From Gymnodinialimonas sp. 57CJ19 (GTDB lineage: Bacteria; Pseudomonadota; Alphaproteobacteria; Rhodobacterales; Rhodobacteraceae): 64,000 bases of DNA. Positions 13,728 through 62,465 of this stretch are shown one piece after another; within the stretch, counting starts at the first letter, position 1; each line of letters begins with the position of its first letter. Both the position numbers and the translations under genes were made by a program. The stretch covers positions 1,214,001-1,278,000 of the forward strand of contig NZ_CP151587.1 in assembly GCF_038396845.1 (NCBI RefSeq), read 5' to 3'. The notes below the pieces were generated by a model that was given only the letters and a program-made list of their open reading frames with translations, was not told the DNA's origin and ran no database searches.

Positions 13728-13755
13728 GGAGTTGTATTTGCCAAGACGAAGGGGG
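13728..13755 (+). repeat. Dispersed intergenic element, copy A (core only)
   Basis: The core GGAGTTGTATTTGCCAAGAC then GAAGG is present, without the paired hairpins that precede copies B to E. It lies between the WYL and VOC genes, antisense to both. Confidence 0.7.
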
Positions 13756-13796
13756 GAGCGCGCCCGGCAGAGAGCCAAGCGCGCTTCGTTGGCGGG

Positions 13797-14171
13797 TTAG
13801 GCGTTGGCTTTGAACAAGCCGATGGAGTTCCCGTCGAGGTCACGGGCGTAGAAGAATTGGCCCGGAGGGATTTGCACATCGGGGCTTTCGACCGAGCCGC
13901 CGGCGGAGATCACGCGTTCACGGGCGGCATCGAGGCTATCGGAGACGATGAGGTGGATCGTGGCGCCATCGCGGGAGGGTTTGCCGGGGTAGAGGTGACC
14001 GCCGATGCCGGGCGTGTCATCGTTGAAGGGGAGCATGGCAATCGGGTTTGGGCCTGCGGTGTCGGTGGTGAGGTTTTTTTGGAGAACGGCGCCGTAGAAG
14101 GCTTTGGCGGCGTCCAGGTCGCTTACGGCGATTTCAAACCAACAGGCGGAGTTTTGAGCGGTGTCAGACAT
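13797..14171 (-). CDS. VOC (glyoxalase-like) family protein
   Basis: A 124-aa single-domain vicinal-oxygen-chelate protein. It opens with ACWFEIAVSDLDAAKAFYGAVL, carries GGHLYPGKPSRDGATIHLIV in the middle, and ends with FFYARDLDGNSIGLFKA, the standard end of one glyoxalase module. The start at 14171 (MSDTAQN) follows AAGGA. A longer frame upstream crosses the putative operator region. The enzyme activity is unknown; many such proteins are dioxygenases, lyases or resistance proteins. Confidence 0.88.
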   Translation of the reverse strand: MSDTAQNSACWFEIAVSDLDAAKAFYGAVLQKNLTTDTAGPNPIAMLPFNDDTPGIGGHLYPGKPSRDGATIHLIVSDSLDAARERVISAGGSVESPDVQIPPGQFFYARDLDGNSIGLFKANA

Positions 14172-14220
14172 TGTGTGTTTCCTTGGTTTCTTGTGTTGAT
14201 GAAACGGGATTAGCACCCTG

Positions 14221-14244
14221 CTCCTGACAGCGTTCTGTCAGGAG
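14221..14244. promoter_or_regulatory. Perfect 10-bp palindrome between divergent VOC and membrane-protein genes
   Basis: CTCCTGACAG (14221-14230) and CTGTCAGGAG (14235-14244) are perfect inverted repeats around CGTT. A further half-site GTGTCAGGG follows at 14246-14254. No T-run follows, so it reads as an operator. The nearby WYL regulator is the likely partner. Confidence 0.55.
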
Positions 14245-14292
14245 TGTGTCAGGGCCGTTGCCTGAGAGGAAGGATTGGGAGAGAAAGGGGGT

Positions 14293-14649
14293 ATGGATCG
14301 GTTTCTAGCATTGTTGCCCCACGCCCGATTGGTGGTGTTTGGTTTGGGGGTTTTTGGCCCGCTGGCGCTGATGGGCATGCGGGGCGAACGCATTGATGTG
14401 CAGGTCGCGGTCGCGGTGTTCGCGGGTATTGCGGCGGGGTGCAGTATTCGGCGCGCACCGGTGGTTTTGCGGTTTGCGGCCATTGTGGCAGCCGTGGGCG
14501 CGATGGTGTTTCAGGCAATCGACGTGTTTGGAGAGGCCAGCCAGTGGGGCATAAGCACGGCGCCGGTTCTATGGGCCTTGCAGGGGATGCTTCTGGCCGC
14601 GCTGATATATCTGTTATTGTGGAACCAGCGCCAGTTGATGCGGTCTTAA
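14293..14649 (+). CDS. Small hypothetical membrane protein
   Basis: A 118-aa protein with about four hydrophobic segments (residues 14-32, 40-52, 60-80 and 92-110) and a basic C-terminus. No family was recognised. ATG 14293 follows a GA-rich AAAGGGGG stretch; a TTG at 14275 is an alternative start. It diverges from the VOC gene across the palindrome at 14221, and its stop overlaps that of the converging DUF1285 gene by 4 bases. Confidence 0.6.
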   Translation: MDRFLALLPHARLVVFGLGVFGPLALMGMRGERIDVQVAVAVFAGIAAGCSIRRAPVVLRFAAIVAAVGAMVFQAIDVFGEASQWGISTAPVLWALQGMLLAALIYLLLWNQRQLMRS

Positions 14650-15206
14650 AGATCTAGTTCGGCCATGGGGATGATGGGAAAGAAAGTTTCCCGCGACCAG
14701 ACACCGAACATAGCGGTGCCCTCGACCGTATGCGCCTCGCCCATATCCACGAGGCGGTAGAAGCTTTTGCGGTCGATCAGCGCCTCGAGCCCGGCGCGGA
14801 TATGGATGTAGGGGGAGGGCTCTCCGTCCGAGTCACGCTCGACCCGGACCGCATGGCCTTCCCCGGCGGTGACCGTATCGCCGACGTTGGTGGTGAAGGT
14901 GATGCCCTCTGCGGTCTGTTCGATATCCACCGCCACGAAGGGCGCATCGACAACGCGGATGCCGACCTTCTCCACCGGGGTGACGAGGAAATACTTCCCG
15001 TCCTCCAGCTTCAGGATCGTGGAGAACAGCCGCACCAGCGGTTTTCGGCCAATGGGTGTGCCTTCATAGAACCACGTCCCATCCCGGCGAATCTCCATAT
15101 CCAGATCGCCGCAGAACTCTGGATTCCACAGGTGAACGGGCGGCAGTTTGCCCTGTTTTGCAGCGTCTTGAGCGGCTTTGAGCAATTGATCGGTCGCGGG
15201 TGTCAT
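14646..15206 (-). CDS. DUF1285 domain-containing protein
   Basis: A 186-aa cytosolic protein. It matches the DUF1285 family, with the PPVHLWNPEFCGDLDMEIRR start and GTPIGRKPLVRLFSTIL. No enzymatic function is established for the family. It diverges from the moxR operon across about 160 bases. The start at 15206 gives a full-length product. Confidence 0.85.
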   Translation of the reverse strand: MTPATDQLLKAAQDAAKQGKLPPVHLWNPEFCGDLDMEIRRDGTWFYEGTPIGRKPLVRLFSTILKLEDGKYFLVTPVEKVGIRVVDAPFVAVDIEQTAEGITFTTNVGDTVTAGEGHAVRVERDSDGEPSPYIHIRAGLEALIDRKSFYRLVDMGEAHTVEGTAMFGVWSRETFFPIIPMAELDL

Positions 15207-15364
15207 GGTGTTCGTGTCCTCTCTTGGGCGTCGGGCGCGATAAAATGGGCAATCGAGGCGTTAGTCACGATGAATTGTCCCCCATCGCCTTTTGCCATTT
15301 GTGGTCTTCGGAATAGGTCTGTTACCTGTTGGAGCTATATTTATCACCCAAGCGGAGCATTTCC

Positions 15365-16372
15365 ATGGCTGACACCGAATCCCTTGTTGCCGAGATTGAA
15401 GCCTTAGGCGCGAAATTGGGAGAGGCGAAGGCCTCGATCGCGGGGCGGATTATCGGCCAGGAAGAGGTTGTGGAACTTGCTTTGGCGGCGATGCTGTCGG
15501 GCGGTCACGCTTTGCTGATGGGTTTGCCGGGGCTTGGGAAGACGTTGTTGGTGGACACGCTTTCCACGGTCATGGGTCTGTCGGCCAACCGGGTGCAATT
15601 CACGCCGGATCTGATGCCGGCGGATATTCTGGGCTCGGAAGTGTTGGAAACCGCTGACGATGGCTCGCGCAACTTCCGCTTCATCGAAGGGCCGGTCTTT
15701 TGCCAGCTGTTGATGGCCGATGAGATCAATCGTGCCTCTCCTCGGACGCAATCGGCGCTGCTGCAAGCGATGCAGGAGCAGGAGGTGACGATTGCTGGCG
15801 AACATCGCCCGTTGCCTGCGCCCTTCCATGTGTTGGCCACGCAAAACCCGATTGAGCAGGAGGGGACGTACCCCCTTCCCGAAGCGCAGTTGGACCGTTT
15901 CCTGGTGAAGATCGACGTCCCTTACCCCGATCGAGACACCGAGCGCAGCATTTTGATTGCCACCACGGGGACTGAAGAAACCTCGGTCTCTGAGGTGTTT
16001 ACCCCTGAGGAGCTGATCGCCGCGCAGCGGGTCGTGCGGCAGATGCCCGTGGGCGAAACCGTGGTGGAGATGATCCTTGATCTGGTGCGTGCATGCCGTC
16101 CGTCCGAGCCTGACGCCCCGGATGTGGTGAAAAACGCGGTGGCGTGGGGGCCTGGTCCCCGCGCGGCACAGGCGCTGATGTTGACGGCACGGGCAAGGGC
16201 GCTGCTGGATGGGCGGCTTGCGCCGTCGGTCGAAGATATCGCGGCGTTGGCGCGGCCCGTGCTGGGCCACCGGATGGCGCTGTCCTTTGCGGCCCGTGCC
16301 GAGGGTGCGGTGTTGGAGCAGGTCATCGACGAAGTCACCGCCCGCGTCACGCGGATCGAGGCGGCGGCTTGA
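15365..16372 (+). CDS. MoxR-family AAA+ ATPase
   Basis: A 335-aa AAA ATPase of the MoxR group. Walker A is GLPGLGKT (residues 53-60), Walker B is LLMADEIN (115-122), and the sensor region is VLATQNPIEQEGTYPLPEAQLDRF in broken form around 158-181. ATG 15365 follows GGAG by 7 bases. MoxR proteins act as chaperone-like ATPases for complexes that usually contain VWA proteins. It heads a four-gene overlapping operon with DUF58 and BatA-like membrane proteins, so a role in cell-envelope assembly or stress is likely but unproven. Confidence 0.93.
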   Translation: MADTESLVAEIEALGAKLGEAKASIAGRIIGQEEVVELALAAMLSGGHALLMGLPGLGKTLLVDTLSTVMGLSANRVQFTPDLMPADILGSEVLETADDGSRNFRFIEGPVFCQLLMADEINRASPRTQSALLQAMQEQEVTIAGEHRPLPAPFHVLATQNPIEQEGTYPLPEAQLDRFLVKIDVPYPDRDTERSILIATTGTEETSVSEVFTPEELIAAQRVVRQMPVGETVVEMILDLVRACRPSEPDAPDVVKNAVAWGPGPRAAQALMLTARARALLDGRLAPSVEDIAALARPVLGHRMALSFAARAEGAVLEQVIDEVTARVTRIEAAA

Positions 16373-17256
16373 GCGAACTCACCCTCCATACGCCTGACAG
16401 CCTGCGGTCGCGGTCCGAAGCGGTTGCGGCATCGCTTCCGCCGTTGATGGCGGATGCGCAGCAATTGGCGGCGACGGTGTTGTTGGGGGTGCATGGCCGC
16501 AAACGCGCGGGCACGGGGGACGAGTTCTGGCAGTATCGCCCGGCGGAAATGGGCGACAGCTATCGGTCGATCGACTGGCGACGCTCTGCCCGGTCCGATG
16601 GGCATTTTCTGCGGCAAACGGAATGGCAGGCGGCGCAATCGGTGATGATTGGCGTCGATGATGCCGCCTCTATGACCTATTCGGGCAGCAATGCGCGGCC
16701 CTCGAAACTGCGGCGGGCCCAGACCTTGGCCATGGCGCTGGCCGTGATCGCCGTGCGTGGTGGAGAGAGGGTGGGCCTGACCCATTTGGCAGAGCCGCCC
16801 CGTGGCGGGCAGGCGCAATTGCTGCGCATTGCCAGCGCGATGATGGATGGCGGAGATCGGCCCGAATACGGCGCCCCCAAGCCGCAAGTCATGCCAGCGG
16901 GCGCGCGCGCGGTGTTCTTCAGCGATTTTCTTGGCGATCCGGCGTCGATTGAAACGGTCCTTGGCCGCGCCGCTGATCGGGGCGTAAAAGGCGCGTTGGT
17001 GCAGGTACTTGACCCGGTTGAGGAGGCATTTCCCTTCGACGGGCGCACCCTGTTTGAAAGCATGTCCGGGGCGATCCGGTTTGAGACGTTGAAAGCCAAG
17101 TCCCTGCGACAAGAATACCTTGCCCGTCTTGCGGCCCGTAAAGATGCCCTGCGCGAGATGGCCCGCCGAACCGGGTGGCGCTTCCATGTGCACCACACCG
17201 ACACGCCGGCTGAACCCGCACTGTTGTGGCTTTATCAAACATTGGAGCGCCGTTGA
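16369..17256 (+). CDS. DUF58 domain-containing protein
   Basis: A 295-aa protein with the DUF58 signature GDSYRSIDWRRSARSD near residue 65, preceded by GTGDEFWQYR. A VWA-like fold follows (VMIGVDDAASM near 92). The start is TTG 16369, overlapping the moxR stop by 4 bases with GAGG 7 bases upstream. DUF58 proteins are the standard partners of MoxR ATPases. The stop overlaps the next start by one base. Confidence 0.9.
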   Translation: MSELTLHTPDSLRSRSEAVAASLPPLMADAQQLAATVLLGVHGRKRAGTGDEFWQYRPAEMGDSYRSIDWRRSARSDGHFLRQTEWQAAQSVMIGVDDAASMTYSGSNARPSKLRRAQTLAMALAVIAVRGGERVGLTHLAEPPRGGQAQLLRIASAMMDGGDRPEYGAPKPQVMPAGARAVFFSDFLGDPASIETVLGRAADRGVKGALVQVLDPVEEAFPFDGRTLFESMSGAIRFETLKAKSLRQEYLARLAARKDALREMARRTGWRFHVHHTDTPAEPALLWLYQTLERR

Positions 17257-20015
17257 TGATTGGTTCGCTCGCCTTCACCTCTCCGCTGCTATTGCTGGCG
17301 CTGGTTGCCTTGCCGCTGTTGTGGTGGCTGTTGCGGGCCGTGCCGCCCGCGCCGATCAAGCGCCGCTTTCCGGGCATTGCCCTGCTGCTGGGGCTATCTG
17401 ATGACGAAAGCCAGACGGACAAGACGCCATGGTGGCTGTTGTTGTTGCGCATGGCGGCGGTGGCAGCGGCGATTGTCGGCTTTGCCGGCCCCGTCCTGAA
17501 CCCGGCAGAGGACCGCGTCGCGGGGGATGGCCCGCTTTTGATTGTTATGGATAGCTCTTGGGCGTCGGCTCGTGATTGGCCTGCGCGGCTGTCTCGGGCA
17601 GAGCTGTTGTTGGATGATGCCGCCCGGCGGGGCCGGGAGGTGGCGGTCGTGCAACTGACCGATTTGCCCGCTTCCGCCCCCTCGTTCCAAGCGGCCAATG
17701 CCTGGGCCCCCCGCGTGCCGACCCTGACGCCCGCGCCTTTTGCCCCCGATATGTCCGCCGCTGAGGATTGGGTCGCCGCGTTGGATGGCCCGGCAGAGGT
17801 GTTCTGGTTCTCGGACGGTGTCGCCCATGAGGGGCGCGATGCGCTGACTGAGGCGCTCGGCGATTTGGGCGCTTTATCGGTGTTCCAAGGGGATCGCGAC
17901 TTGATCGCCTTGTCGCCGCCCCGGTTCGAAGATGGCATGGTGCGCGGTGACCTTTCGCGCCTCGGCTCGGGCGCGCCGCGTGACGTGACCGTGGTGGCCC
18001 ATGGGCTGGACCCTGCGGGCTTGCCCCGTGACTTGGCGCAGGCGGTGGCCACCTTTGATGCAGGCGAGATGGTGGCACAGGTGGCATTTGACCTGCCGCC
18101 GGAACTGCGTAATCGGATCACCCGGTTTGAACTTTCTGGTGAACGTCATGCGGGCGCAGTGGCGTTGGTCGATGATGCGCTGCAACGGCGCCAAGTAGCC
18201 CTGATCTCGGCAGGCGCTGATGATGAACAGCAGACGCTTTTGTGGCCGCTGCATTACCTGCGCCAAGCCTTGGAGCCGACCGCTGATCTGATGGAAGGTG
18301 CCCTGTCGGATGTCCTTTTGGCGAGCCCTGATGTCATCATGCTGGCCGATGTCGCGACCCTTTCGCCGGAAGAAGAGGCGGGGTTGATCGCTTGGGTCGA
18401 AAACGGCGGGCTCTTGGTGCGGTTTGCGGGACCACGACTTGCCGGTTCGGACATTGCGCGGGACGAGGCGGGGCCTCTGATGCCCGTGCGATTGCGGATT
18501 GGGGGGCGCACCGTCGGCGGCGCGATGTCTTGGGGAGAGCCCAAGGAACTACGCCCGTTTGAACAGGGCTCGCCGTTCTTCGGGCTGGCGATCCCGGCGG
18601 ATGTGCAAGTGACCAGCCAGGTGGTGGCGCAGCCGGACCCTACCCTTGCAGACCGTACGATTGCATCGCTCTCGGATGGCACGCCCTTGGTCACACGTGC
18701 CAACCTTGGGCAAGGGTCGGTGATCTTGTTCCACGTCACGGCAAATGCGGAGTGGTCCACGTTGCCGCTGTCGGGCCTCTTCGTTCAAATGCTGGAACGC
18801 TTGGCAGTTTCGACCCGCCCCGTGGCCCCGGAAGCAGCGGATCTGGAGGGCACGATCTGGACCCCGGAAGAGGTGCTGGACGGCTTCGGCGTTTTGCGCG
18901 ATGCGGGCACGCGCCCGGGCGTGGCGGGGGAAGATCTGGCGACAGCACCCCTGTCGGCCGAGGTCTTGCCGGGGCTTTATTCCGGCGAGGATCGACGCCT
19001 GGCCCGCAACGTGATGGCGCAGGACACGGCGCTGGCGGCTGCGCAATGGCCCGCCGATGTGCCGGTTGAAGGCATGTCGGTCACGGTGCCCACGGACCTT
19101 ATGGCGGCGTTCCTGACGAGCGCCTTGGCTTTGCTGTTGCTCGATGCCCTCGCGGCGCTTTGGCTGGCGGGACGGCTCGGCCGGCTCACACAGGGCGTGG
19201 CCGTTCTCGCCGCGTCGATAGTGCTGACCCCACAGGCGGACGCACAGATGACCCCGGCAGAAGAGCTGGCGCTTCTGGCCACGTCGGAAGCAACATTGGC
19301 CTATGTTCTGACCGGAGATGAAGGCGTGGATGAGACATCCCGTGCGGGCCTTCAGGGCCTGTCCAACACGCTATACCAACGCACCTCAGTTGAGCCTGCG
19401 CCACCCATCGGGGTGAACCTGGAAACTGACGAACTGGCCTTCTTCCCGATGATCTATTGGCCGATCACGGCGGGCCAGGAGATTCCTTCCGCCGCCGCAT
19501 ACCGCCGCCTGAACGACTATCTGCGTGGTGGCGGGATGATCGTGTTTGATACGCGCGACGCCCATGTGGGGGGCTTCGGGTCTGGCACGCCGGAAGGCCG
19601 GCGCTTGCAGGTGATCGCGGCACCTCTGGATATTCCGCCGCTGGAGCCGATCCCCGATGATCATGTGCTGACGCGCACCTTTTATTTACTGCAAGACTTC
19701 CCCGGTCGCCATCTGTCGCGTGACGTCTGGGTCGAGGCTGCGCCCGCAGATGCGGAACAGATTGAGGGGATGCCGTTCCGCAACCTGAACGACGGCGTTA
19801 CGCCGGTGCTGATCGGAGGCAACGATTGGGCCGCCGCTTGGGCGCAGGATGACCGGGGCCGGCCGCTCTACCCCGTGGGGCGAGGTCAAGCCGGTGAGCG
19901 CCAGCGCGAGATCGCGCTGCGATTCGGTGTGAATCTTGTAATGCATGTGCTCAGCGGCAATTACAAATCCGACCAGGTCCATGTGCCTGATCTGCTCGAC
20001 CGATTGGGGCAATGA
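17256..20015 (+). CDS. BatA-like and DUF4159 domain membrane protein
   Basis: A 919-aa protein. Residues 1-40 are the BatA-type N-terminus with two hydrophobic stretches (SPLLLLALVALPLLWWLL). A further helix lies near 62-82, then a large soluble region with VWA-like (VMDSSWAS) and glutamine-amidotransferase-like (LIAWVENGGLLVRFAGPR) parts. More helices lie near 620-670. The C-terminal 210 residues are DUF4159 (LAFFPMIYWPIT, LNDYLRGGGMIVFDTRDAH). ATG 17256 overlaps the DUF58 stop. It is probably the membrane partner of the MoxR/DUF58 pair. Confidence 0.87.
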   Translation: MIGSLAFTSPLLLLALVALPLLWWLLRAVPPAPIKRRFPGIALLLGLSDDESQTDKTPWWLLLLRMAAVAAAIVGFAGPVLNPAEDRVAGDGPLLIVMDSSWASARDWPARLSRAELLLDDAARRGREVAVVQLTDLPASAPSFQAANAWAPRVPTLTPAPFAPDMSAAEDWVAALDGPAEVFWFSDGVAHEGRDALTEALGDLGALSVFQGDRDLIALSPPRFEDGMVRGDLSRLGSGAPRDVTVVAHGLDPAGLPRDLAQAVATFDAGEMVAQVAFDLPPELRNRITRFELSGERHAGAVALVDDALQRRQVALISAGADDEQQTLLWPLHYLRQALEPTADLMEGALSDVLLASPDVIMLADVATLSPEEEAGLIAWVENGGLLVRFAGPRLAGSDIARDEAGPLMPVRLRIGGRTVGGAMSWGEPKELRPFEQGSPFFGLAIPADVQVTSQVVAQPDPTLADRTIASLSDGTPLVTRANLGQGSVILFHVTANAEWSTLPLSGLFVQMLERLAVSTRPVAPEAADLEGTIWTPEEVLDGFGVLRDAGTRPGVAGEDLATAPLSAEVLPGLYSGEDRRLARNVMAQDTALAAAQWPADVPVEGMSVTVPTDLMAAFLTSALALLLLDALAALWLAGRLGRLTQGVAVLAASIVLTPQADAQMTPAEELALLATSEATLAYVLTGDEGVDETSRAGLQGLSNTLYQRTSVEPAPPIGVNLETDELAFFPMIYWPITAGQEIPSAAAYRRLNDYLRGGGMIVFDTRDAHVGGFGSGTPEGRRLQVIAAPLDIPPLEPIPDDHVLTRTFYLLQDFPGRHLSRDVWVEAAPADAEQIEGMPFRNLNDGVTPVLIGGNDWAAAWAQDDRGRPLYPVGRGQAGERQREIALRFGVNLVMHVLSGNYKSDQVHVPDLLDRLGQ

Positions 20016-22081: not shown

Positions 22082-22101
22082 GGCGCGACTTTACGGGGTT
22101 G

Positions 22102-22159
22102 GTTGGGGTCCCCGCGCTGCGTGCGCGGGGGTCGGTGGCGAGGGGGGAAGCCCCCCTCG
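22102..22159. terminator. Two GC hairpins after the MoxR operon
   Basis: A CCCCGCG/CGCGGGG stem (about 22110-22130) is followed by a perfect 9-bp CGAGGGGGG/CCCCCCTCG stem with a 3-base loop (22139-22159). They lie between the plus-strand operon and the minus-strand gene ending at 22282. There is no T-run, so factor-independent termination is uncertain. Confidence 0.45.
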
Positions 22160-22281
22160 CGCTCCCCCATTTCGGCGAACGCAGGCGGTGCGTTTGCGGA
22201 GAGGGTGGGTTTCGATATTTGTAAAAAGGTGAAGTTGGAGCGCGGCGTTCTGGGGCGCTGTCTTGTGACCTTGGGAGTGGC

Positions 22282-23209: not shown

Positions 23210-23247
23210 TCGTGCGATGCAGCCGCGCGTGACGGGAGGGTCAGCCT

Positions 23248-24705: not shown

Positions 24706-24787
24706 AAGGGGGCCAGCCCCCTTGAGCGATCTTTTTCCAGGAAAAAGATCGCTGACCCCCGGAGTTGTATGCGCCAAGATGAAGGAG
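24706..24787 (+). repeat. Dispersed intergenic element, copy B, with two hairpins
   Basis: Stem 1 is AAGGGGG/CCCCCTT (24706-24712, 24717-24723). Stem 2 is a perfect 13-bp pair (24725-24737 with 24741-24753) and loop CAG. Then comes the core GGAGTTGTATGCGCCAAGAT with GAAGGAG. The end of the core (24781-24787) is the ribosome-binding site of glcE. Confidence 0.8.
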
Positions 24788-27274: not shown

Positions 27275-27317
27275 GCTCCCCCTCAATCCACGCTCGCAAA
27301 CCCAACGCCTCGCTCCC

Positions 27318-27340
27318 TCCTTCATCTTGGCAAATACAAC
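27318..27340 (-). repeat. Dispersed intergenic element, copy F (reverse, core only)
   Basis: The reverse complement reads GTTGTATTTGCCAAGATGAA then GG. It lies 44 bases after the glcF stop in antisense orientation. Its flank (TCAATCCCACACCCGCCCCA on the plus strand) resembles the flank of copy G, so F and G form a subtype without the paired hairpins. Confidence 0.7.
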
Positions 27341-27473
27341 TCAATCCCACACCCGCCCCAAACGCCGCCCTCTCGGAGGGCTCCCTCCCGCGCCCCCTAG
27401 TTGATCCCCACTCTGGCCATATTCTCGCCGCGCTTGCCCACTACGCCCTACCGAAACGGTTAAGGAGCCACCG

Positions 27474-38417: not shown

Positions 38418-38450
38418 TTGCCGCAACAAAGGGGCGTAAGCGGCGTAAAC

Positions 38451-38495
38451 CTCCCCACAACGGCTTCCTGGCGTGGGGCAATCTTCAATGGAGCA
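38451..38495 (+). promoter_or_regulatory. SAM/SAH riboswitch upstream of metK
   Basis: Stem P1 is CCCCAC (38453-38458) with GTGGGG (38473-38478). The loop carries AACGGCTTCCTGGC, the conserved ligand-binding core of the SAM/SAH class. GGCTTCC in the loop can form a pseudoknot with TGGAGC, the metK ribosome-binding site (38489-38494), so ligand binding would close translation. This class is known from Rhodobacterales metK leaders. The match is by sequence and layout. Confidence 0.9.
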
Positions 38496-41354: not shown

Positions 41355-41425
41355 GAGGGGGCCAGCCCCCTCTGCGCATCCAAGGGATGCGCATACCCCC
41401 GGAGGTGTATTTGCCAAGATGAAGG
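41355..41425 (+). repeat. Dispersed intergenic element, copy C, with two hairpins
   Basis: Stem 1 is GAGGGGG/CCCCCTC (41355-41361, 41366-41372). Stem 2 is TGCGCATCC/GGATGCGCA (41373-41381, 41385-41393). The core GGAGGTGTATTTGCCAAGAT then GAAGG follows at 41401-41425. It starts 7 bases after the trmB stop in sense orientation and probably terminates that operon. Confidence 0.85.
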
Positions 41426-41507
41426 GGAGGCCCCAAGCGTTTGGGGTGTGGACGAGGGGGCGGGCCGGGTCTATCACCGCTGCGACCCTGAATGAGAGGC
41501 GCGTGAC

Positions 41508-53573: not shown

Positions 53574-53626
53574 GGCTGTGGCGCAGTCAAAATGTGCGGC
53601 TGCGCCGCGTTGTATTTTGAAAGGGG

Positions 53627-53698
53627 AGGGGGCTAGCCCCCTTGGCGCATCCTGTGGGATGCGCCCACCCCCAGAGGTGTATTTGCCAAGATGAAGGA
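53627..53698 (+). repeat. Dispersed intergenic element, copy D, with two hairpins
   Basis: Stem 1 is AGGGGG/CCCCCT with loop CTAG (53627-53642). Stem 2 is GGCGCATCC/GGATGCGCC (53644-53652, 53657-53665). The core AGAGGTGTATTTGCCAAGAT then GAAGGA ends 4 bases before the mipZ stop. It lies 54 bases after the cydB stop. Confidence 0.85.
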
Positions 53699-53701
53699 GC
53701 G

Positions 53702-54511: not shown

Positions 54512-54679
54512 GGCCTGTCCTGCCTTGTTTTTATACGGTTTTACGGCCTCGTGCGTATCGGGCCCTTTCGGGGTGTATACGCCTGCCTTGGGGGATTTGT
54601 TAAGCGCAAAGCCATAAATGATGGACGGATCATGTGCCCCGTGCGACCCTTTTGCCGCAATGCAAGGAAGGGGCTGGCA

Positions 54680-55951
54680 ATGGAAACGGACCGGTATGGA
54701 AACACGCTTGGTACCGCCAGCGCGGCTGCTGCGCGGGCCTATGACATCGGCGTGGACCACGTCCTGGCCGCCACATCGGGTGCGCAAGAGGCTTTTGCCA
54801 AGGCGGTGGCAGCGGATGAAGGCTTCGCGCTGGCCCATGTGGGCGCGGCCCGAGCGGCGATGTATGCGGGTGACATGGGGGCGATCAAACCGTTGATGGA
54901 ACGGGCCGTTGCGCTGTCCGGCGGCCTTGGAGCGCGCGAGCTTTCTCACATCGCGGTGTTCAACCTGCTGTTCTCTGCCAAGCCGGTGGAGGCCCGCGCC
55001 GCGGTGGAGGCCCATGTCCTTGAACATCCCTGTGATGCCATGGTCGCGCAGATCTGCACCAACATCTTTGGCCTGATCGGTTTTTCCGGCCAACCGGGAC
55101 GTGAGGCGGCCCTGCTGGCCTATACGGGAGCTCTGCTGCCGCATTACGGCGACGATTGGTGGATGGGCTCCATGCATGCGCTGTCGCTCACAGAAGTGGG
55201 TCAGGCGGGTGCGGGGCTCGAGATGATGGAGGCTTCACTGGCACGCTACGGCGCCAACGCCAATGGCTCTCACTTCAAAGCCCATGCGCTGTATGAGCAG
55301 GGTCGGACAGCCGAAGGACGTGCCTATTTAAACGCCTGGATGGCCGACTATGCGCCGCAATCGGTGCTGCACGGGCACCTGTCCTGGCACCAGGCGCTTT
55401 GGGCTTTGCAAGATGGCGATTGGGATGCCATGTGGCGCCACTACCGGGATGAGATTGCGCCGGGCGCGGGCCATGCTTTGCCGATAAATGTCCTCACCGA
55501 CGGGGCGGCCCTCCTCTGGCGGGCGGAAATGGCAGGGGCAGAGGTCGCGGCGGAAGACTGGCGCGCCCTCAGCGCCTATGCGACGCAACATTTCCCCAAC
55601 CCCTCTCAGAGTTTTGCAGATATCCACGCCGCCTTGGCCCATGCCATGGCGGGCGACGGGGCCGCCTTGGCCAAAGTGGCCGAGGCCTCCCGTGGATACG
55701 CCGCCGACTTGGTGCAACCCGTGGCCCGCGCTTGGGGTGCCATCGCGCGGGGCCACTATGCCCTCGCTCTTGTGGAGCTCACTCCCGTCATGGCCGACCA
55801 TGCCCGCCTTGGTGGCTCCAAGGCGCAGCGCGACCTGCTGGAGCTTACCTGGCTGCTCTGCCTGATGCGCACCGGAGCCCAGGACGAGGCCCATCGCGCG
55901 ATCTCCACCCGCCGCCCCCTGTTCTCCCGCGCCGCGCCCGTCGCCCCCTGA
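54680..55951 (+). CDS. TPR-repeat protein of the TTC38 type
   Basis: A 423-aa cytosolic protein of helical repeats, resembling tetratricopeptide repeat protein 38. It shows METDRYGNTLGTASAAAARAYD, ELSHIAVFNLLFSAKPVEA, DDWWMGSMHALSLTEVGQ, HGHLSWHQALWALQDGDWDA and a repeat-rich end. No catalytic motif is known. ATG 54680 follows AAGGAAGGGG; the 88-codon upstream extension overlaps mipZ and is dropped. Confidence 0.85.
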   Translation: METDRYGNTLGTASAAAARAYDIGVDHVLAATSGAQEAFAKAVAADEGFALAHVGAARAAMYAGDMGAIKPLMERAVALSGGLGARELSHIAVFNLLFSAKPVEARAAVEAHVLEHPCDAMVAQICTNIFGLIGFSGQPGREAALLAYTGALLPHYGDDWWMGSMHALSLTEVGQAGAGLEMMEASLARYGANANGSHFKAHALYEQGRTAEGRAYLNAWMADYAPQSVLHGHLSWHQALWALQDGDWDAMWRHYRDEIAPGAGHALPINVLTDGAALLWRAEMAGAEVAAEDWRALSAYATQHFPNPSQSFADIHAALAHAMAGDGAALAKVAEASRGYAADLVQPVARAWGAIARGHYALALVELTPVMADHARLGGSKAQRDLLELTWLLCLMRTGAQDEAHRAISTRRPLFSRAAPVAP

Positions 55952-55998
55952 TCCTTATCCCCCATGCCGCCGCGCCCAAGGCTTTCGCGCCTGCCTCT

Positions 55999-56020
55999 CA
56001 TTCACCTTGGCCCATACAAC
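55999..56020 (-). repeat. Dispersed intergenic element, copy G (reverse, diverged core)
   Basis: The reverse complement reads GTTGTATGGGCCAAGGTGAA then TG, with two changes in the CCAAGATG part. The flank TCAATCCCTCACTCTCCCCA resembles that of copy F. It lies downstream of rpmE on the same strand as rpmE. Confidence 0.55.
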
Positions 56021-56078
56021 TCAATCCCTCACTCTCCCCAAACGATGCCCTTACCTCCAACAGACCCACCCCAAAACG

Positions 56079-56105
56079 CAAAACGCCGCCCCCGAAGGAG
56101 CGGCG
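56079..56105 (-). terminator. Rho-independent terminator after rpmE
   Basis: On the minus strand CGCCGCTCC and GGGGCGGCG form a 9-bp stem with one G-U pair, loop TTCG, then TTTT. Confidence 0.8.
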
Positions 56106-56131
56106 CCTGACGCGTAACAAAAGTCGGTTCC

Positions 56132-56353
56132 TTAGAAGCCCAGACCTTCGTACTTTTTCTTGAACTTCGATACACGGCCGCCGGTGTCCAGCAGACGGGC
56201 GCCGCCGCCGGTCCAGGCAGGGTGAACCGTGGGGTCAATGTCCAGCGCCAGGGTGTCGCCTTCGGCGCCCCAGTGCGAGCGCATCTGAACGATGTCGCCG
56301 TTGGTCATTTTCACGTTGATCACGTGGTACTCGGGATGCAGGTCCTTTTTCAT
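56132..56353 (-). CDS. rpmE: 50S ribosomal protein L31
   Basis: A 73-aa bL31 ([46 protein letters not shown]). It lacks the zinc-binding cysteines, so it is a C-minus form, usual in alphaproteobacteria. GGAGAT precedes the start. It is the last gene of the rplS-rpmE pair, 12 bases after rplS. Confidence 0.96.
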
Positions 56354-56365
56354 CTCGTGATCTCC

Positions 56366-56746
56366 TTATGCTTTGGCTTTGAGCGGCTTGTAACGGGTAT
56401 CCTCGGCGATACGCGCGGACTTACCGCGACGCGAGCGGAGGTAGTACAGCTTGGAACGACGCACGCGGCCACGGCGCACGACGGTAATGCTGTCGATGTT
56501 TGTCGAATGCAGGGGGAACACACGCTCCACGCCCTCACCGAAGGAGATCTTGCGCACGGTGAACGAGCCGGCAATGCCGTGGCCGTTCTTGCGTGCGATG
56601 CAGACGCCTTCGTAGTTCTGCACACGGGTACGTGTGCCCTCGGTAACCCGGAAGCCGACGCGAATGGTGTCGCCCGCTTTGAAATCCGGAATGTCCTTGG
56701 CAAGTTCTGCAACTTGCTCGGCTTCCAATTGTGCGATCAGGTTCAT
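56366..56746 (-). CDS. rplS: 50S ribosomal protein L19
   Basis: A 126-aa bL19 ([75 protein letters not shown]). AAGGAG lies 8 bases before the start. In most genomes it follows trmD directly; here an inserted segment and a trmD relic separate them. Confidence 0.97.
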
Positions 56747-57168
56747 CTGAAACGCTCCTTTATCTGACGCGGTTTTCCCGCTTGATTTTCCGTCACCCGA
56801 GAGCTCTGGTCTTCGACCGGGTCCGCTTCATTCCCATTCGGGAGCGCCCGCCAGAGGGTCGTGCAATCTACATTCTACAACGTGGTCCCAAGGCCTCGCC
56901 CGCGCCGAAACTTCGCGGATGTCCCATAGCACCACAGTCCACTGGCTGATTCCAACCGTGAACAGGCTGCGTATAAGCGGCGGAGAGGTATGGGGCAAGG
57001 GGCGATTGGGACCATCGCGGCCAATGTGCAGAGGCTGAAATGAGTGTCCGAATTGAGCCAGACCCAACTGGATGCTACGCTGTGCTCAAGTGTCCGGTGT
57101 GTAGACAGGTCAAACGTTTGACACCCCCGTAATTCACTACTCGGAAACACTTGGTTTGGGGAAAGAAA
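56747..57168. other. Region between rplS and the Abi_C gene
   Basis: About 420 bases that should hold the rplS promoter and the left edge of an inserted segment. No recognised gene is present apart from the small candidate frame at 57040. GC content falls from about 57000 onward, into the Abi_C gene. Confidence 0.4.
57040..57132 (+). CDS. Candidate 30-aa cysteine-containing small ORF
   Basis: ATG 57040 with GAGG 5 bases upstream opens a 30-codon frame ending TAA at 57132: MSVRIEPDPTGCYAVLKCPV then CRQVKRLTPP. Cys12, Cys18 and Cys21 (CPVC) recall half of a zinc ribbon. It lies 36 bases upstream of the Abi_C gene on the same strand. It may be chance; evidence is limited to the start site and the CxxC pair. 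Confidence 0.22.
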   Translation: MSVRIEPDPTGCYAVLKCPVCRQVKRLTPP

Positions 57169-57960
57169 ATGACCAATGGCGATTTCGGCGAACCAAACAT
57201 TCCTAATGATCTTTTTGAATGCGCGATGCTCCTGAAAAACAACATCATTGGCCTAACGACTGGGGGTGGTTCGGAGCCTGAGTACAAATTGGCCAGAAGA
57301 AAGCTAATGGAAGACCCGGCAAGCAAGCGGCTTCTGCCGGAGTTTGTGCGTTTCTCAAATGATGCCGCATCGTTGCGGTCAACGCTATCAAGCGTGGCGA
57401 GTGGTGCGGGTTCTTGGGCCGTGCGCCGAGGCCACGTTGTCGAAGCTTTCAAACCCGTATTGACCTTTCTGGAAGCAGGTGGCGGTGCGGCTGACGCAGC
57501 AATTACAAATGGTCTTGCTTTCTATGATGCGCCCGCTGTCCAAGCTTTTTGGGCCAAGGCTTTGGATAGACGAACGACGGACCCGGATGGAGCTATTACC
57601 GCCGCAAGCGCGTTACTTGAGGAGGTCTGCAAGCATATTATCGAGGACAGCGGCGCAAAGTGGGAGTCCAAGTGGAACGTGCCGAAGCTCTATTCAGAAG
57701 CTGCGAGGGTCTTGAAACTCGCACCATCGCAGCACCAAGAAGAAGTTTTCAAAACGATTCTGGGAAATTGCCAAAGCGTCGTTCAGACTATTGGTTCTCT
57801 GAGAAACAAAAGTGGCGATGCCCATGCTGGTGGGCGCTCACGCGTTCCATTCAAGCCACGTCATGCCGCTTTGACGGTCAACTTGGCTGGGTCCATGGCC
57901 TTGTTTCTGATCGAGACTTGGCAGGCGAGAATTGAGGAGCAATGGATCAGCGTTCCTTAG
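57169..57960 (+). CDS. Abortive-infection family protein (Abi_C domain)
   Basis: A 263-aa protein whose C-terminal half matches the Abi_C domain: DPDGAITAASALLEEVCKHI, PKLYSEAARVLKLAP, VVQTIGSLRNKSGDAHAGG, and HAALTVNLAGSMALFLIETW. The N-terminal half (residues 1-140) is not recognised and may be the effector or sensor part. Abi_C proteins are linked to phage defence. Its GC content is visibly lower than that of the neighbouring genes, and it lies between rplS and a trmD relic, so it was probably acquired. ATG 57169 is preceded by GGGGAAAG; TTG 57151 is an alternative. Confidence 0.82.
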   Translation: MTNGDFGEPNIPNDLFECAMLLKNNIIGLTTGGGSEPEYKLARRKLMEDPASKRLLPEFVRFSNDAASLRSTLSSVASGAGSWAVRRGHVVEAFKPVLTFLEAGGGAADAAITNGLAFYDAPAVQAFWAKALDRRTTDPDGAITAASALLEEVCKHIIEDSGAKWESKWNVPKLYSEAARVLKLAPSQHQEEVFKTILGNCQSVVQTIGSLRNKSGDAHAGGRSRVPFKPRHAALTVNLAGSMALFLIETWQARIEEQWISVP

Positions 57961-57992
57961 ACGTGGCGCCATACTGACGCAGCAATTGGCGC

Positions 57993-58315
57993 AGCCGCAG
58001 CGAAATCCCGCTTCGTCCCGCAAACCGGCCACTGTTCTGTCTTGTCGGCCTGTTCCTTCCGCCATTCGGCCACCATGCCGGGGTCGCCCGAAAGCAGCGC
58101 GGGCGGCATCTGATGCTCATGCCGATCGGCGGGCTTGATGTGTTGTGGATGCTCTGGCAGCCCGTCCGAGGAGCGCTCTCTTTTTGGGGGGCTGCTGCGT
58201 TGCCCGGAACGCAGGAGGTAAGCCGTGTGGTGGCGTCCAGAACCTGGGGCGCGGAAATCCCGCGTCCGCTCCTTGCCCACGCGGTCTGCGGACAGGTCTT
58301 GTGTCGGCGATTACA
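57993..58315 (-). pseudogene. Decayed second copy of the trmD 3' end
   Basis: On the minus strand this stretch is homologous to the last 100 or so codons of the intact trmD at 59550. Shared blocks include a 20-base identity (58051-58070 equals 59617-59636) and GGTGGCGTCCAGAACC. The reading frame is broken: relative to trmD there is a 2-base gain near 58170-58180, and the GGEIPAQ loop is altered. GLPEHPQHIKPADRHEHQMP is still readable after the shift. The N-terminal two-thirds of TrmD is missing. It directly abuts the histidine-kinase stop. Confidence 0.85.
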
Positions 58316-59327
58316 GGGGGAACTCCGCGCGCACGACCAATCCGGTCTCTGCCCAGTCCATTTCGAAAGATCCGTCTACGGTGGCGATCAGGTTCTTGAT
58401 AATTCTCGAGCCGCTGCTGCGCTCTGGCTTTGCGACCGCGGGGCCGCCGCTTTCGGACCATGTCATCATCAATCGGTTGCTGTCTTCATTGGCTTGAACT
58501 TTCCAATCGACGTGAACGTTACCACCGTCCGCGCTGAAGGACCCGTGCTTCACGGAATTTGTGGCCAGCTCGTGCAGGCAAAGTGCAACACACGATAGTA
58601 TGTGATTGGAAAGTGCTATGCTGGGGCCGCTGAGTTGAAACTGCTGCTCCCCTTGGGGGGCGTAGGCAGAAAGGATTCGCTGAGACAGCGTGTCAAAGGC
58701 AAGGGTCTGGCCTTCTGGCTTTCTGATTGTCTCGAAGTGAGCGTCGCTCAATGCCCTCAGACGCGCTTCTACAACTTCCGCCAGATCATTTACGTCATCG
58801 TGCTCGCGGGCTGACATCCTAATGATGGAACTCATCACGTTAACGATATTTCGCAGCCTGTGAATAAGCTCTTCATCGGCAAGCTTGCGTGCCTCGGCTT
58901 CGGCTTTGCGTTTGGCCGTAACATCTAATTGCGAGCCGAAAAAGAAAATTAGCTCGCCATCGTCATCCAGGATCGGGCCAATTTGAAGCGCGTTGATGAA
59001 AGCCGTGCCGTCTTTACGGTAGTTCACAAGTTCAACGGTATCGACTCTCCGTTCATCAAGCGCGGCGCGCACGAATTTCACGTTTTCTTCTGTCGTGTCG
59101 CGCCCTTGCAAAAGCCTGCAATTCTTTCCGACGATCTCTTCCTCGGTGTATCCGACAAGATCCAGAAATGCCTGGTTCGCGAAAACAATGGGATTGTCGG
59201 GTCGGTTCGGGTCCGAAATGATCAGTGGGATCTGCGCATGCCGCACGGAATGTGCCATCGCGCCGGCAGTTGCCAGGTCCCAATGCGCACGGTTTTTTCC
59301 TGCCTTCAAAACGTTCTCCAGATCCAT
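58311..59327 (-). CDS. LOV-domain (blue-light) HWE/HisKA_2 histidine kinase
   Basis: A 338-aa soluble sensor kinase. The PAS/LOV domain covers about residues 30-138; GKNCRLLQG holds the flavin-reactive Cys70, with NYRKDGTAFINALQIGPI after it. The phospho-acceptor region EELIHRLRNIVNVM contains His156, followed by an HWE/HisKA_2-type ATPase (LCLHELATNSVKHGSFS, MTWSESGGPAVAKPERSSGS). Start 59327 has AGAGG 7 bases upstream; an in-frame ATG at 59450 would add 41 residues without a good site. No response regulator is adjacent. Confidence 0.88.
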   Translation of the reverse strand: MDLENVLKAGKNRAHWDLATAGAMAHSVRHAQIPLIISDPNRPDNPIVFANQAFLDLVGYTEEEIVGKNCRLLQGRDTTEENVKFVRAALDERRVDTVELVNYRKDGTAFINALQIGPILDDDGELIFFFGSQLDVTAKRKAEAEARKLADEELIHRLRNIVNVMSSIIRMSAREHDDVNDLAEVVEARLRALSDAHFETIRKPEGQTLAFDTLSQRILSAYAPQGEQQFQLSGPSIALSNHILSCVALCLHELATNSVKHGSFSADGGNVHVDWKVQANEDSNRLMMTWSESGGPAVAKPERSSGSRIIKNLIATVDGSFEMDWAETGLVVRAEFPL

Positions 59328-59549
59328 TGACGTGCCTCTGGCAAAACCAGGCTCTTTTTCAAGAGCCTCCTGCGTGCATGCCATTTGTGTTGCTGAGAAG
59401 GGTGTCACGTCGGTAAGCTCGCCGCAACTTAATACCATTTTAGGAAACACACACCCCGCAAAGGGGACCGCATGGTGATCGGTTCCAGAGGCCGGCGACG
59501 CGCGTTTGCGTCGCCCATGATCGCGAAGCGTGTAACGTGGCCTTTGATG

Positions 59550-60356
59550 CTACCCTGCGTCTTTCTCATGGGCCGCCCATAAATCCGGCCGCCGCTCTTG
59601 CGTCAGCGCCTTGGCTTGTTCCTTCCGCCATTCGGCGACCTTGCCGTGATCGCCCGACAGCAGCACGGGCGGCACCTGATGCCCGCGCCAATCGGCGGGT
59701 TTGGTGTATTGTGGGTGCTCCAGCAGCCCGTCCGAGAAGCTTTCTTCCTGGGTGGATTCTGCGTTGCCCAAAACGCCGGGGATCAGCCGCGTGGTGGCGT
59801 CCAGAACCAGTTGCGCGGGGATTTCTCCGCCGGTCAGGACCGCGTCGCCGACGCAGATCTCTTCCATGGCGTAGGCGTCGATCACCCGTTGGTCCAACCC
59901 CTCGAACCGGCCGCAGACGATGGTCATGCCTTTGGCCTTCGAGAACCGCTCGGCATCGGCTTGGGTGAAGGGTTTGCCGCGCGGGGTCATGTAGACGACA
60001 GGCCATTCAGCCGGGTCCGCAGGGGTGCCGCGCGATGCGATATCCAGCGCACGGCCCATCACGTCGGGCTTCAAAACCAGCCCCGCGCCGCCACCCGCTG
60101 GCGTGTCGTCCACTTGCCGGTGCTTGCCGGTCCCGAAGGTGCGTAGATCAACGGTTTCCAGCGCCCAAAGGCCCTTTTGCAAGGCCTTGCCTGTCAGGGA
60201 GGCATCAAGCACGCCGGGGAATGTCTCGGGGAACAAGGTGATGACCTTGGCGCACCAGGCTTTTGCAAGGCGGGGGCGTTCGGTCATTAACTCACGGGGT
60301 TTCAGGCTGGCGGATTGCGTCAGGCGGCCGTGTGATTTGGTAGGGGGCTGTGTCAT
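59550..60356 (-). CDS. trmD: tRNA (guanine-N1-)-methyltransferase TrmD
   Basis: A 268-aa SPOUT methyltransferase for m1G37. The knot shows VDDTPAGGGAGLVLKPDV near residue 83, VYMTPRGKPFTQ, CGRFEGLDQRVIDAY, and CVGDAVLTGGEIPAQ. The N-terminal extension SHGRLTQSASLKPRELM is found in Rhodobacterales TrmD and supports the start at 60356. This is the intact copy; a relic lies at 57993. Upstream on the same strand is a 29-aa gene, not rimM as usual. Confidence 0.95.
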   Translation of the reverse strand: MTQPPTKSHGRLTQSASLKPRELMTERPRLAKAWCAKVITLFPETFPGVLDASLTGKALQKGLWALETVDLRTFGTGKHRQVDDTPAGGGAGLVLKPDVMGRALDIASRGTPADPAEWPVVYMTPRGKPFTQADAERFSKAKGMTIVCGRFEGLDQRVIDAYAMEEICVGDAVLTGGEIPAQLVLDATTRLIPGVLGNAESTQEESFSDGLLEHPQYTKPADWRGHQVPPVLLSGDHGKVAEWRKEQAKALTQERRPDLWAAHEKDAG

Positions 60357-60378
60357 CCCGCCCGTCTACGCGGGCGGG
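60357..60378 (-). promoter_or_regulatory. All-GC hairpin abutting the trmD start codon
   Basis: On the minus strand CCCGCCCG and CGGGCGGG form a perfect 8-bp stem with a 6-base loop. The 3' arm ends at the base before the trmD ATG and contains the only SD-like sequence. It could terminate transcription of the small gene upstream or hinder trmD translation. Confidence 0.5.
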
Positions 60379-60391
60379 CGCGGGCGATCAA

Positions 60392-60481
60392 TTACTTCTC
60401 GTCTTTGTCTTGGCGGGCACGCATTACAACCAGCGTGATAACGGAAACAACGGCGCCGAGGGCGGCATAAACGAAGAACAT
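60392..60481 (-). CDS. 29-aa single-helix membrane protein
   Basis: The frame from ATG 60481 encodes MFFVYAALGAVVSVITLVVM then RARQDKDEK: one membrane helix and a charged cytosolic tail. AAGGA lies 8 bases upstream. It lies 35 bases ahead of trmD on the same strand. The clean helix-plus-charge pattern and the ribosome-binding site argue that it is real. The function is unknown. Confidence 0.6.
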   Translation of the reverse strand: MFFVYAALGAVVSVITLVVMRARQDKDEK

Positions 60482-60660
60482 GATTAAATTCCTTTGAAGG
60501 GGTAAGTGATGCACCCTGTCTAACGCCTGCCGGGTGGCTCTGACATGGCGGGAATCCCGCATCCGGCCCCCTGCGTCAGCGCGCAGAAGCACCGCAGACA
60601 TGCACCTTGTCGCTCGGGGGGCGGATCGGTACATTGCGTCCCTGCGAAGGAGCCTCCCCC

Positions 60661-61596
60661 ATGAGTAAACCTATTCTGGTCGTCGATCAGCTGTCGAAGA
60701 TATACGCCGGCGGCTTCACCGCGCTGGATGCCGTATCGCTAGAGATTGCCGAGGGCGAGATTCTGGCCCTGCTTGGCCCCAACGGTGCGGGCAAGACGAC
60801 CCTGATCTCTACGATTTGCGGGATCGTGCAGCCCACCAGCGGGAAGGTCTCGGTCGGGGGGCATGATACACAAACCGATTACCGTGCCGCCCGCAGCCTG
60901 ATCGGGTTGGTGCCCCAGGAGATCAACCTGGAGCCGTTCGAGAAGGTGATCAACACGGTCCGTTTCTCGCGCGGGCTGTTCGGGAAGCCGCGCAATGATG
61001 CCTATCTGGAGAAGATCCTGCGGCAGCTGTCGTTGTGGGATAAGAAGGACGACGCGATCCGCACCCTGTCGGGGGGGATGAAGCGGCGGGTGTTGATTGC
61101 CAAGGCACTGTCCCACGAGCCTCGATTGTTGTTTCTGGATGAGCCTACGGCGGGCGTGGACGTAGAGCTGCGCCGCGACATGTGGGACATCGTGCGCAGC
61201 TTGCAGGAAAGCGGCGTGACGATCATTTTGACCACCCACTACATCGAAGAGGCCGAAGCGATGGCCGACCGGGTGGGGGTGATCAACAACGGCAAAATCC
61301 TGCTGGTGGAAGAGAAGGCCAACCTGATGGCCCGCATGGGGCAGAAGGAGCTTCGCATTGATCTGGCCGAGCCGATTGACGCCATCCCCGCCGTTTTGGC
61401 GGACCGCGATCTGGTGTTGGAGCAGGGCGGCGGCCGGTTGGTTTACCGCTACGACACCCGCGCAGAGCGCACCGGTATCGTCCGTCTGTTGGCGGCCTTG
61501 CAGAGCGAAGGGCTGGTCGTGGCCGACGTGGAAACCAAGCAGAGTTCATTGGAAGAGATTTTCGTGGGTCTCGTGAAAGAAGGGGAAGAGGCATGA
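60661..61596 (+). CDS. ABC transporter ATP-binding protein (drug/lipid export type)
   Basis: A 311-aa ATPase. Walker A is GPNGAGKT (residues 40-47), the Q-loop is in [11 protein letters not shown], the signature is LSGGMKRRV, Walker B is [12 protein letters not shown] and the H-loop is TTHYIEEA. The long C-terminal tail after residue 225 fits the ABC-2 exporter ATPase group (YadG-like). AAGGAG lies 8 bases before ATG 60661. It overlaps the permease gene by 4 bases. Confidence 0.93.
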
Positions 61597-62354
61597 ACCT
61601 TCAGGCCGTAAAATCCATCTATGTCTTCGAGATGGCCCGCACGTTCCGCACCTTGGCCCAGTCCATCGTATCGCCGGTCCTGTCCACGTCGCTGTATTTC
61701 ATCGTGTTCGGCACGGCGATCGGGTCGCGGATCGAACAAGTGGAGGGCGTCAGCTACGGCGCGTTCATCGTGCCGGGCTTGATCATGCTGACAGTGCTGA
61801 CCCAGTCGATTTCCAACGCCAGTTTCGGGATATACTTCCCGAAGTTTATTGGCACGATCTACGAATTGCTGTCGGCACCGGCCTCGTTTCTGGAAATCAC
61901 CGCAGGCTACGTTTTGGCGGCCGCGACCAAGAGTTTCATGATCGGGTTAATCATTCTGGCCACAGCATTCTTCTTTGTGAACCTGCAAATTCTGCATCCG
62001 ATGTGGATGCTGACGTTCCTTGTGTTGACCTGCCTGTCGTTCAGCCTGTTCGGCTTTATCATCGGGATTTGGGCGCAGAACTTTGAGCAGTTGCAGTTGA
62101 TCCCGCTTTTGGCGGTGACGCCCTTGGTGTTCTTGGGCGGCGCGTTCTACTCGATCTCGATGCTGCCCGAGAGCTGGCAGACCGTGACGCTGTTCAACCC
62201 GGTGGTCTATTTGATCTCGGGGTTTCGGTGGAGCTTCTTTGGCGTGGCCGATGTGGCGCTGGCCTGGTCCTTGGTGGCGATTTTGGGCTTCACCGGAACC
62301 TGCATTGCCGTGATCGGATGGATATTCAAATCCGGCTGGCGCATCCGCGCCTGA
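61593..62354 (+). CDS. ABC-2 type transporter permease
   Basis: A 253-aa membrane protein with six helices. [20 protein letters not shown] near residue 55, [15 protein letters not shown] near 90, and [19 protein letters not shown] near 170 match the YadH-like ABC-2 permease family. ATG 61593 overlaps the ATPase stop. A hairpin-bearing repeat element follows the stop by 40 bases. Confidence 0.92.
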
Positions 62355-62393
62355 GGCCCGGGTGAGGCGGGGCGTTTGGGGCCAGTGTCGCTA

Positions 62394-62465
62394 AGGGGGC
62401 TAGCCCCCTCTGCGCATCCTTGAGGATGCGCTCACCCCCAGAGGTGTATTTTCCAAGATGAAGGA
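62394..62465 (+). repeat. Dispersed intergenic element, copy E, with two hairpins
   Basis: Stem 1 is AGGGGG/CCCCCT with loop CTAG (62394-62409). Stem 2 is GCGCATCCT/AGGATGCGC (62412-62420, 62423-62431). The core AGAGGTGTATTTTCCAAGAT then GAAGGA follows at 62440-62465. It separates the converging ABC permease and rimM genes. Confidence 0.85.

Follow-up and report, generated by a model that had tools for sequence, protein, structure and literature searches.

A dispersed gene-end element with a bipartite, non-palindromic core in Gymnodinialimonas sp. 57CJ19 and other members of its family

Results

The window, a stretch of 64,000 nucleotides of the Gymnodinialimonas sp. 57CJ19 genome (contig NZ_CP151587.1, positions 1,214,001 to 1,278,000), includes seven copies of a dispersed intergenic element to which an earlier note on this DNA had attributed a conserved 25-base core. 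All seven are present, each about 5 bases or less from the place given in that note. The core is conserved as claimed, but it measures about 26 nucleotides and has variable bases inside. Six of the seven copies had been located 3′ of genes; our home-made gene calls put all seven in that position. Six fit the pattern GAGGTGTATTTGCCAAGATG with at most three mismatches, and 100 dinucleotide shuffles of the window yielded no match. Seven copies in 64 kb is a roughly fivefold density compared with the genome as a whole, where 84 copies in 3.86 Mb correspond to 1.4 per 64 kb.

Two forms of the core, G-form and T-form, are distinguished by the letter at its variable fourth place, and some copies carry a module of hairpins built of runs of G and C ahead of the core. 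Copy 1 (13729..13754, plus strand) has a T-form core with an altered tail (AAGACGAAG) and no such module. Copy 2 (24708..24787, plus) consists of a G5/C5 hairpin, a second hairpin, a C5 run and the core GAGTTGTATGCGCCAAGATGAAGGAG; it is grouped with the T-form copies because of its T-form letter. Copies 3 (27317..27342, minus) and 6 (55997..56022, minus) are both T-form, the former without the hairpin module and the latter decayed (GAGTTGTATGGGCCAAGGTGAATGAG). The remaining three, all on the plus strand, are G-form copies with hairpins: copies 4 (41357..41427) and 5 (53628..53699) have a perfect 20-base core, and convergent genes surround copies 5 and 7 (62395..62466).

The earlier note had proposed searching the whole genome for the core with up to three mismatches and counting the copies inside and between genes. 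In the window's genome (G000, a single contig of 3,861,607 bases), the core GAG(T/G)TGTATtnGCCAAGATGAAGGaG gave 80 matches at that threshold and its reversed control gave none. A second search pattern supplied extra candidates, and from 88 candidates with CCAAG and at most four mismatches the four with four mismatches were dropped, leaving the working set of 84 copies. One of those dropped, at 809.4 kb, resembles a genuine older-type copy. Beyond the 84 there are also copies with shortened or other-class cores at 35.0, 1,157.9, 1,675.7 and 3,186.2 kb and one with a standard tail at 3,085.6 kb. A 4-kb DNA query with one hairpin copy matched further hairpin copies in the same genome; the four of these that were read are the ones with shortened or other-class cores. 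A plasmid search with one hairpin copy as the query returned no match; 38 matching stretches of viral contigs were left unread and treated as background.

No called gene contains any of the 84 copies in full, three copies overlap a called edge and 79 are located 3′ of at least one gene. Convergent gene pairs hold 32 copies (11.5 expected), tandem pairs 47 (45.6 expected) and divergent pairs only 5 (26.9 expected; p about 1e-12), the expectations being computed from intergenic length in 20 sampled regions and the window. The element has no fixed orientation behind a gene: in tandem pairs, 22 copies are sense and 25 antisense, and the median distance from stop codon to core is 65.5 nt for sense and 28 nt for antisense copies. 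A genome from another genus of the family, G146, was similar. Among the first 30 listed of its 134 copies, 17 are convergent (one of them flagged as overlapping a called gene), 8 tandem antisense, 4 tandem sense and 1 divergent.

Canonical terminators, identified by simple detection of a stem plus a T-tract, were found at 26 of 60 convergent gene ends with the element and at 31 of 46 without it (p=0.018), or 18 of 60 and 23 of 46 with a stricter T-tract (p=0.045). When hairpins that use the T-tract of the core were excluded, which affects only element-bearing ends, the former counts fell to 19 of 60 (p=4e-4) and 11 of 60 (p=7e-4), respectively. Since canonical terminators are fewer at element-bearing convergent ends, the element seems to substitute in part for ordinary terminators between genes that converge.

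The core spans positions -4 to +21, GAG(T/G)TGTATTtGCCAAGATGAAGGaG, and most positions are invariant or nearly so among the 84 copies. Its middle is variable (TTTG in 45 copies, TTGG in 18, TGGG in 9 and others in 12). The information content of the core is 44.6 bits, while 16.5 bits are needed to locate 84 sites. G at the fourth place is found in 28 copies (22 GGAGG and 6 AGAGG); the other 56 are T-form copies, often preceded by GGGAT, and two of these, including copy 2, bear the hairpin module. The core itself is non-palindromic, palindromes being confined to this optional module, and G/C hairpins lie ahead of the core in about a third of the copies. A G-run/C-run hairpin followed by a second C-run precedes GAG in 23 of the 28 G-form copies; those without this layout are mostly CCTCC-GGGG-GGAGG. 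The second stem, where present, is strongly divergent between copies while its pairing is kept. Compared with shuffled sequences, the 28 G-form copies and 30 copies of G146 have an excess of hairpins to the left of the core. There was none to the right, and an arrangement of two terminators back to back, which would need another hairpin on that side, was rejected.

Of 166 upstream sequences examined, 48 have this layout; they come from hairpin copies of G000, G146 and two other genomes. In 43 of the 48, the G-run, the C-run that pairs with it and the second C-run were equal in length (4/4/4, 5/5/5 or 6/6/6). The two C-runs had the same length in 22 of 23 G000 copies and in 22 of 23 G146 copies, when about 9 are expected after shuffling. 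The simplest account, although not a firm explanation, would be that a single G-run can pair with either of two C-runs; a triple helix is another possible one.

The element is not limited to the window's genome. Named genome records contain the sequence GAGKTGTATTNGCCAAGATGAAG in 38 stretches, and every record concerned is titled Roseicyclus, Octadecabacter or Pseudooctadecabacter, in a search that may have left out the window's nearest records; NCBI assigns Roseicyclus and Octadecabacter to the Roseobacteraceae, Rhodobacterales. A wider form can be written as GAGTATTT-NNN-purine-rich tail. With one mismatch allowed, GAGTATTTNNNNCAAGANGAAG matched 82 of 198 family genomes, one per genus; 50 had at least 5 copies, 39 at least 10, and the maximum was 134. 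The reversed control gave zero in all 198. Among the matches listed, the tails vary by genome (ACGAGAAGAAG, GCAAGATGAAG, ACAAGATGAAG, AAAAGAAGAAG, CCAAGAAGAAG), and the prevailing tail differs from one genome to another. Genomes with one or two matches are not safe carriers because the family pattern can match coding sequence by chance: at loci L110, L112 and L244 the match falls within a single open reading frame whose protein is almost the same at all three, probably a tRNA synthetase. A 17-base piece of the window's core gave 11 matches, and its control 3, in 16 genomes of other families of the class. Several classes also coexist in G000. A second, GATATTT-NNN-AAAAGATGAAG, occurs six times in the 0.87 Mb examined (307381, 1067252, 1987038, 2487599, 2715364 and 3076088), plus loci L334 and L335. 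A third, GATATTT-NNN-GAACGAGGAA or similar, has five copies (609042, 2840646, 2944292, 2974301 and 3825800).

Relatives of the window's genome were used to follow individual sites. G002 is 92% identical to G000 over a 4-kb test stretch. In 30 orthologous pairs from these two genomes the core was 97.4% identical and the flanking bins 87-94%, mostly 87-90%, so that the core differs about fourfold less than most flanks; part of this core identity is imposed by the pattern with which the G002 copies were found, and sites located through flanking genes are less biased. Located in this way, all seven window sites were found in G002 and six in G012, where the fixed blocks persist and the spacer changes. 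In G011, four sites were retained, three of them with altered cores (copy 1 was left out of this count). The sites of copies 2, 5 and 7 were retained in G008 with other cores such as GGGATATTTCGGGCACATGGAAG, and those of copies 5 and 7 in G010.

Considered by site, copy 1 has orthologues in G002 and G012. The site of copy 2 is retained in G002, G012, G011 and G008 and strongly altered in G010, while copy 3 is present in G002 and G012 and absent from G011, G010 and G008. Copy 4 is present in G002, G012 and, altered, in G011, and absent from G010 and G008. The site of copy 5 persists with changed cores in G002, G012, G011, G010 and G008, and in G005 it has a core of another class in the opposite orientation. 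Copy 6, decayed in the window, has a standard core in G002; it is absent from G012, and G010 has a copy of another class nearby. The G010 site of copy 7, orthologous to window position 62441, holds a head-to-head inverted pair. There and at locus L116, which holds another such pair, the two halves share a tail and form a near-perfect palindrome.

Of the 89 copies in G002, 29 of the first 30 listed pair with a G000 copy, flanks included. The thirtieth adjoins the second EF-Tu gene. It shares with the copy at the first EF-Tu gene an identical sequence of at least 85 nt around the core start, at least 45 nt of it upstream and 40 nt downstream (loci L218 and L219), and no copy was found in the G000 stretch aligned with L219. 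Judging from this repeated sequence, one local copying or conversion event is likely. The G146 copies were informative as well. In 100 listed exact matches, the base before CAAG was G in 99 and the free tail base was invariably T, whereas 27 combinations of the three spacer bases occurred. These counts concern positions left free by the pattern, and 30 of the 100 were rechecked on DNA. Fixed bases that the pattern does not force, next to a diverse spacer, are not what recent copying alone would leave. Several G146 copies have near-identical upstream modules of about 70 bp.

Discussion

The copy number, the placement, the independence of orientation, the constraint on the core, the shortage of terminators at convergent ends and the occurrence across the family with changed tails are established. 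We tentatively read the element as a termination or boundary element at gene ends, the core of which would be recognized by a putative sequence-specific factor, a reading that we hold as possible but still short of probable. The linear core of about 26 bp, made of two fixed blocks flanking one to three free bases, sits a short way past stop codons, in most cases where genes converge, and would act on transcription arriving from either side. The hairpin version would supply G/C stems on one side as an optional aid. As a first guess, a protein bound to the core would be a roadblock or help termination. Several site classes exist, the prevailing one differing by genome. Termination of transcription, binding of a factor and the protein nature of that factor are inferred. 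Use in both directions argues against a signal in single-stranded RNA, and the fact that most sites are shared with relatives speaks against transposition being frequent. The combination of fixed blocks and a diverse spacer suggests recognition at two contact areas, and different prevailing classes per genome point to shared readers. Taken together, these features make us prefer a factor that binds the core and would thereby end or insulate transcription.

Several observations weigh against this proposal. The T-form copies as a set, 56 of the 84, are no richer in hairpins than shuffled sequences, whether left or right of the core, and so offer no evident means of stopping transcription; most hairpin copies lack a U-tract directly after a stem. 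Terminators are not depleted in tandem pairs (10 of 43 with the element, 35 of 148 without it, p=1.0; 7 of 43 with the exclusion described above, p=0.40) or when all gene ends are pooled (35 of 102 and 67 of 195, p=1.0), and both the gene calls and the terminator finder were home-made. The excess of information over what is needed to locate the sites can also mean copying, of which the EF-Tu pair in G002 offers one local instance. At least three core classes coexist in G000, so one coevolving reader would be insufficient. A broader version of the proposal is a family-wide, undescribed gene-end system with several classes of long non-palindromic sites, each made of the TATTT block that all classes share, about 3 free spacer bases and a purine-rich tail particular to the class. 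Co-evolving, sequence-specific DNA-binding factors would read these sites and stop transcription both ways where genes converge, which would make the system the bacterial equivalent of protein-bound terminators. We consider this extension doubtful.

Other explanations must be weighed against a factor-bound gene-end element. The element could be a repeat of the repetitive extragenic palindromic (REP) or miniature inverted-repeat transposable element (MITE) type that owes its dispersal to transposition or conversion in the past, is tolerated behind genes, is avoided in promoters and has no host role. Its placement at gene ends, its avoidance of divergent regions, its surplus of information, the near-identical upstream modules in G146 and the additional copy at the second EF-Tu gene would all fit. 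Nonetheless, nearly all the G002 copies compared match G000 copies with their flanks, the core has changed far less than those flanks, unforced bases next to a diverse spacer are constant, and canonical terminators are rarer where the element separates convergent genes; we regard this explanation as credible but somewhat unlikely. The earlier note's suggestion of a terminator-linked mobile repeat is supported in its terminator part, through the gene-end placement and the terminator shortage at convergent sites, and mostly unsupported in its mobility. Its second suggestion, a target of a small RNA (sRNA) or a protein, finds support as a possibility from the core constraint. A further alternative is a site acting in the 3′ untranslated region of the RNA, through sRNA pairing or as a processing or decay signal. 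The core is close to stop codons, and fixed blocks with a free spacer would fit pairing with an internal loop, but a single RNA strand cannot serve all copies when sense and antisense are nearly equal, and Rfam had no match over the elements tested. A role at the RNA level therefore appears improbable. A translation-like signal or mini open reading frame was rejected. The Shine-Dalgarno-like GGAGG and the ATG that had prompted this idea do occur in the core region, but the former precedes only 22 of the 84 copies and the latter is missing from the versions in other genomes, so neither indicates translation; both vary across copies and dialects, and the orientation of the element is independent of genes. 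Lineage dialects, gene-end placement and head-to-head pairs would also suit a DNA-uptake or recombination signal resembling the DNA uptake sequences (DUS) or uptake signal sequences (USS) of other bacteria. With an average of only one copy in about 46 kb of G000, and no sequence-specific DNA uptake known in this family, such a role is highly improbable.

Another alternative is a polar sequence of chromosome organization, either a guide for FtsK like the FtsK orienting polar sequences (KOPS) or another replication-oriented mark. In E. coli, the guide word of FtsK is GGGNAGGG. With dnaA at 592 kb in G000, and replication arms defined by an origin set at 0.85 Mb and a terminus at 2.73 Mb, 60 of the 84 elements have the leading-strand orientation (p=1e-4), compared with 122 of 220 genes. 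The bias reaches 27:3 across 1.40-2.45 and 2.73-3.40 Mb, exceeding that of G-rich words, and at relatives' loci (39 copies) the element agrees with local GGGNAGGG in 21 cases, disagrees in 8 and ties in 10. However, GGGNAGGG itself is strongly polar here (238:27 in sampled sequence), and its version GGGCAGGG ranks first among the 8-mers of the examined arms (53:1). GGGNAGGG switches strand between 2,720,041 and 2,741,415, where the GC skew also turns; this is likely the dif/terminus region, although a search for dif by consensus in G000 gave nothing convincing. Genome-wide, the leading share is 71% for the elements, 58-69% for ordinary G-rich words outside them and 90% for GGGNAGGG. By section along the chromosome the element counts are 13:6, 16:2, 0:5, 11:1, 9:3 and 11:7, the five consecutive copies beside the flip (2.46-2.72 Mb) being all reversed relative to GGGNAGGG, against 60:19 elsewhere. 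An FtsK guide, attractive when strong polarity was seen under a first terminus guess of 2.45 Mb, was rejected because locating the flip at 2.720-2.741 Mb and comparing G-rich words removed most of that polarity. At 60:24 overall, the polarity of the elements is near that of G-rich words rather than clearly above composition. We read the bias mainly as strand composition, which leaves the reversed copies at 2.46-2.72 Mb unexplained, and a chromosome-organizing role is very unlikely.

The element shares features with several known systems. REP elements and bacterial interspersed mosaic elements (BIMEs) are known from enterobacteria and pseudomonads. Like them, it is a short dispersed intergenic repeat found behind genes in tens to hundreds of copies and avoiding divergent promoter regions. 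Extragenic placement at gene ends is common to both, but here the conserved unit is a linear, non-palindromic, bipartite core with an optional hairpin, and most of the positions compared are shared with G002. The hairpin copies and many family members resemble intrinsic terminators in having G/C hairpins followed by the T-rich TATTT, and the gene-end position and the shortage of canonical terminators between convergent genes agree with this likeness. In contrast to intrinsic terminators, exact conservation extends 10-12 nt past the T-tract, both orientations are found in tandem genes (22 sense and 25 antisense in G000; 4 and 8 in G146) and most copies here lack the hairpin module. The DUS of Neisseria and Pasteurellaceae have dialects and paired copies in terminators, comparable to the lineage dialects and inverted pairs at gene ends seen here; our element has far fewer copies and a longer core with a free spacer. 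The Sal box bound by TTF-I, a eukaryotic gene-end terminator restricted to rDNA, is also a long non-palindromic site behind genes and a possible roadblock. It differs in that the present element has no fixed orientation and its bound protein is hypothetical.

If the gene-end reading were true, many members of a large bacterial family would end or insulate some of their transcription units by a specifically read site, beyond the generic hairpin and T-tract. The annotation of terminators in the family would change, and a new factor would be indicated. The dialects and coexisting classes would allow change at about a hundred sites to be studied as a natural experiment, and the putative factor could be fished directly with the conserved core.

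Full-text literature searches, which do not cover subscription papers, found no description of the element. The word Rhodobacter is absent from the main text of an article on REP elements (PMC12306157), and passages of another that treats dif in Dinoroseobacter (PMC7901474) describe no such element. Rfam gave no gathering-score match over the elements of the window and none over those of eight loci at E up to 5, where three unrelated weak matches appeared elsewhere. The sole gathering-score match in the window is an S-adenosylmethionine/S-adenosylhomocysteine (SAM/SAH) riboswitch at 38449-38495 on the plus strand (RF01727, 54.7 bits).

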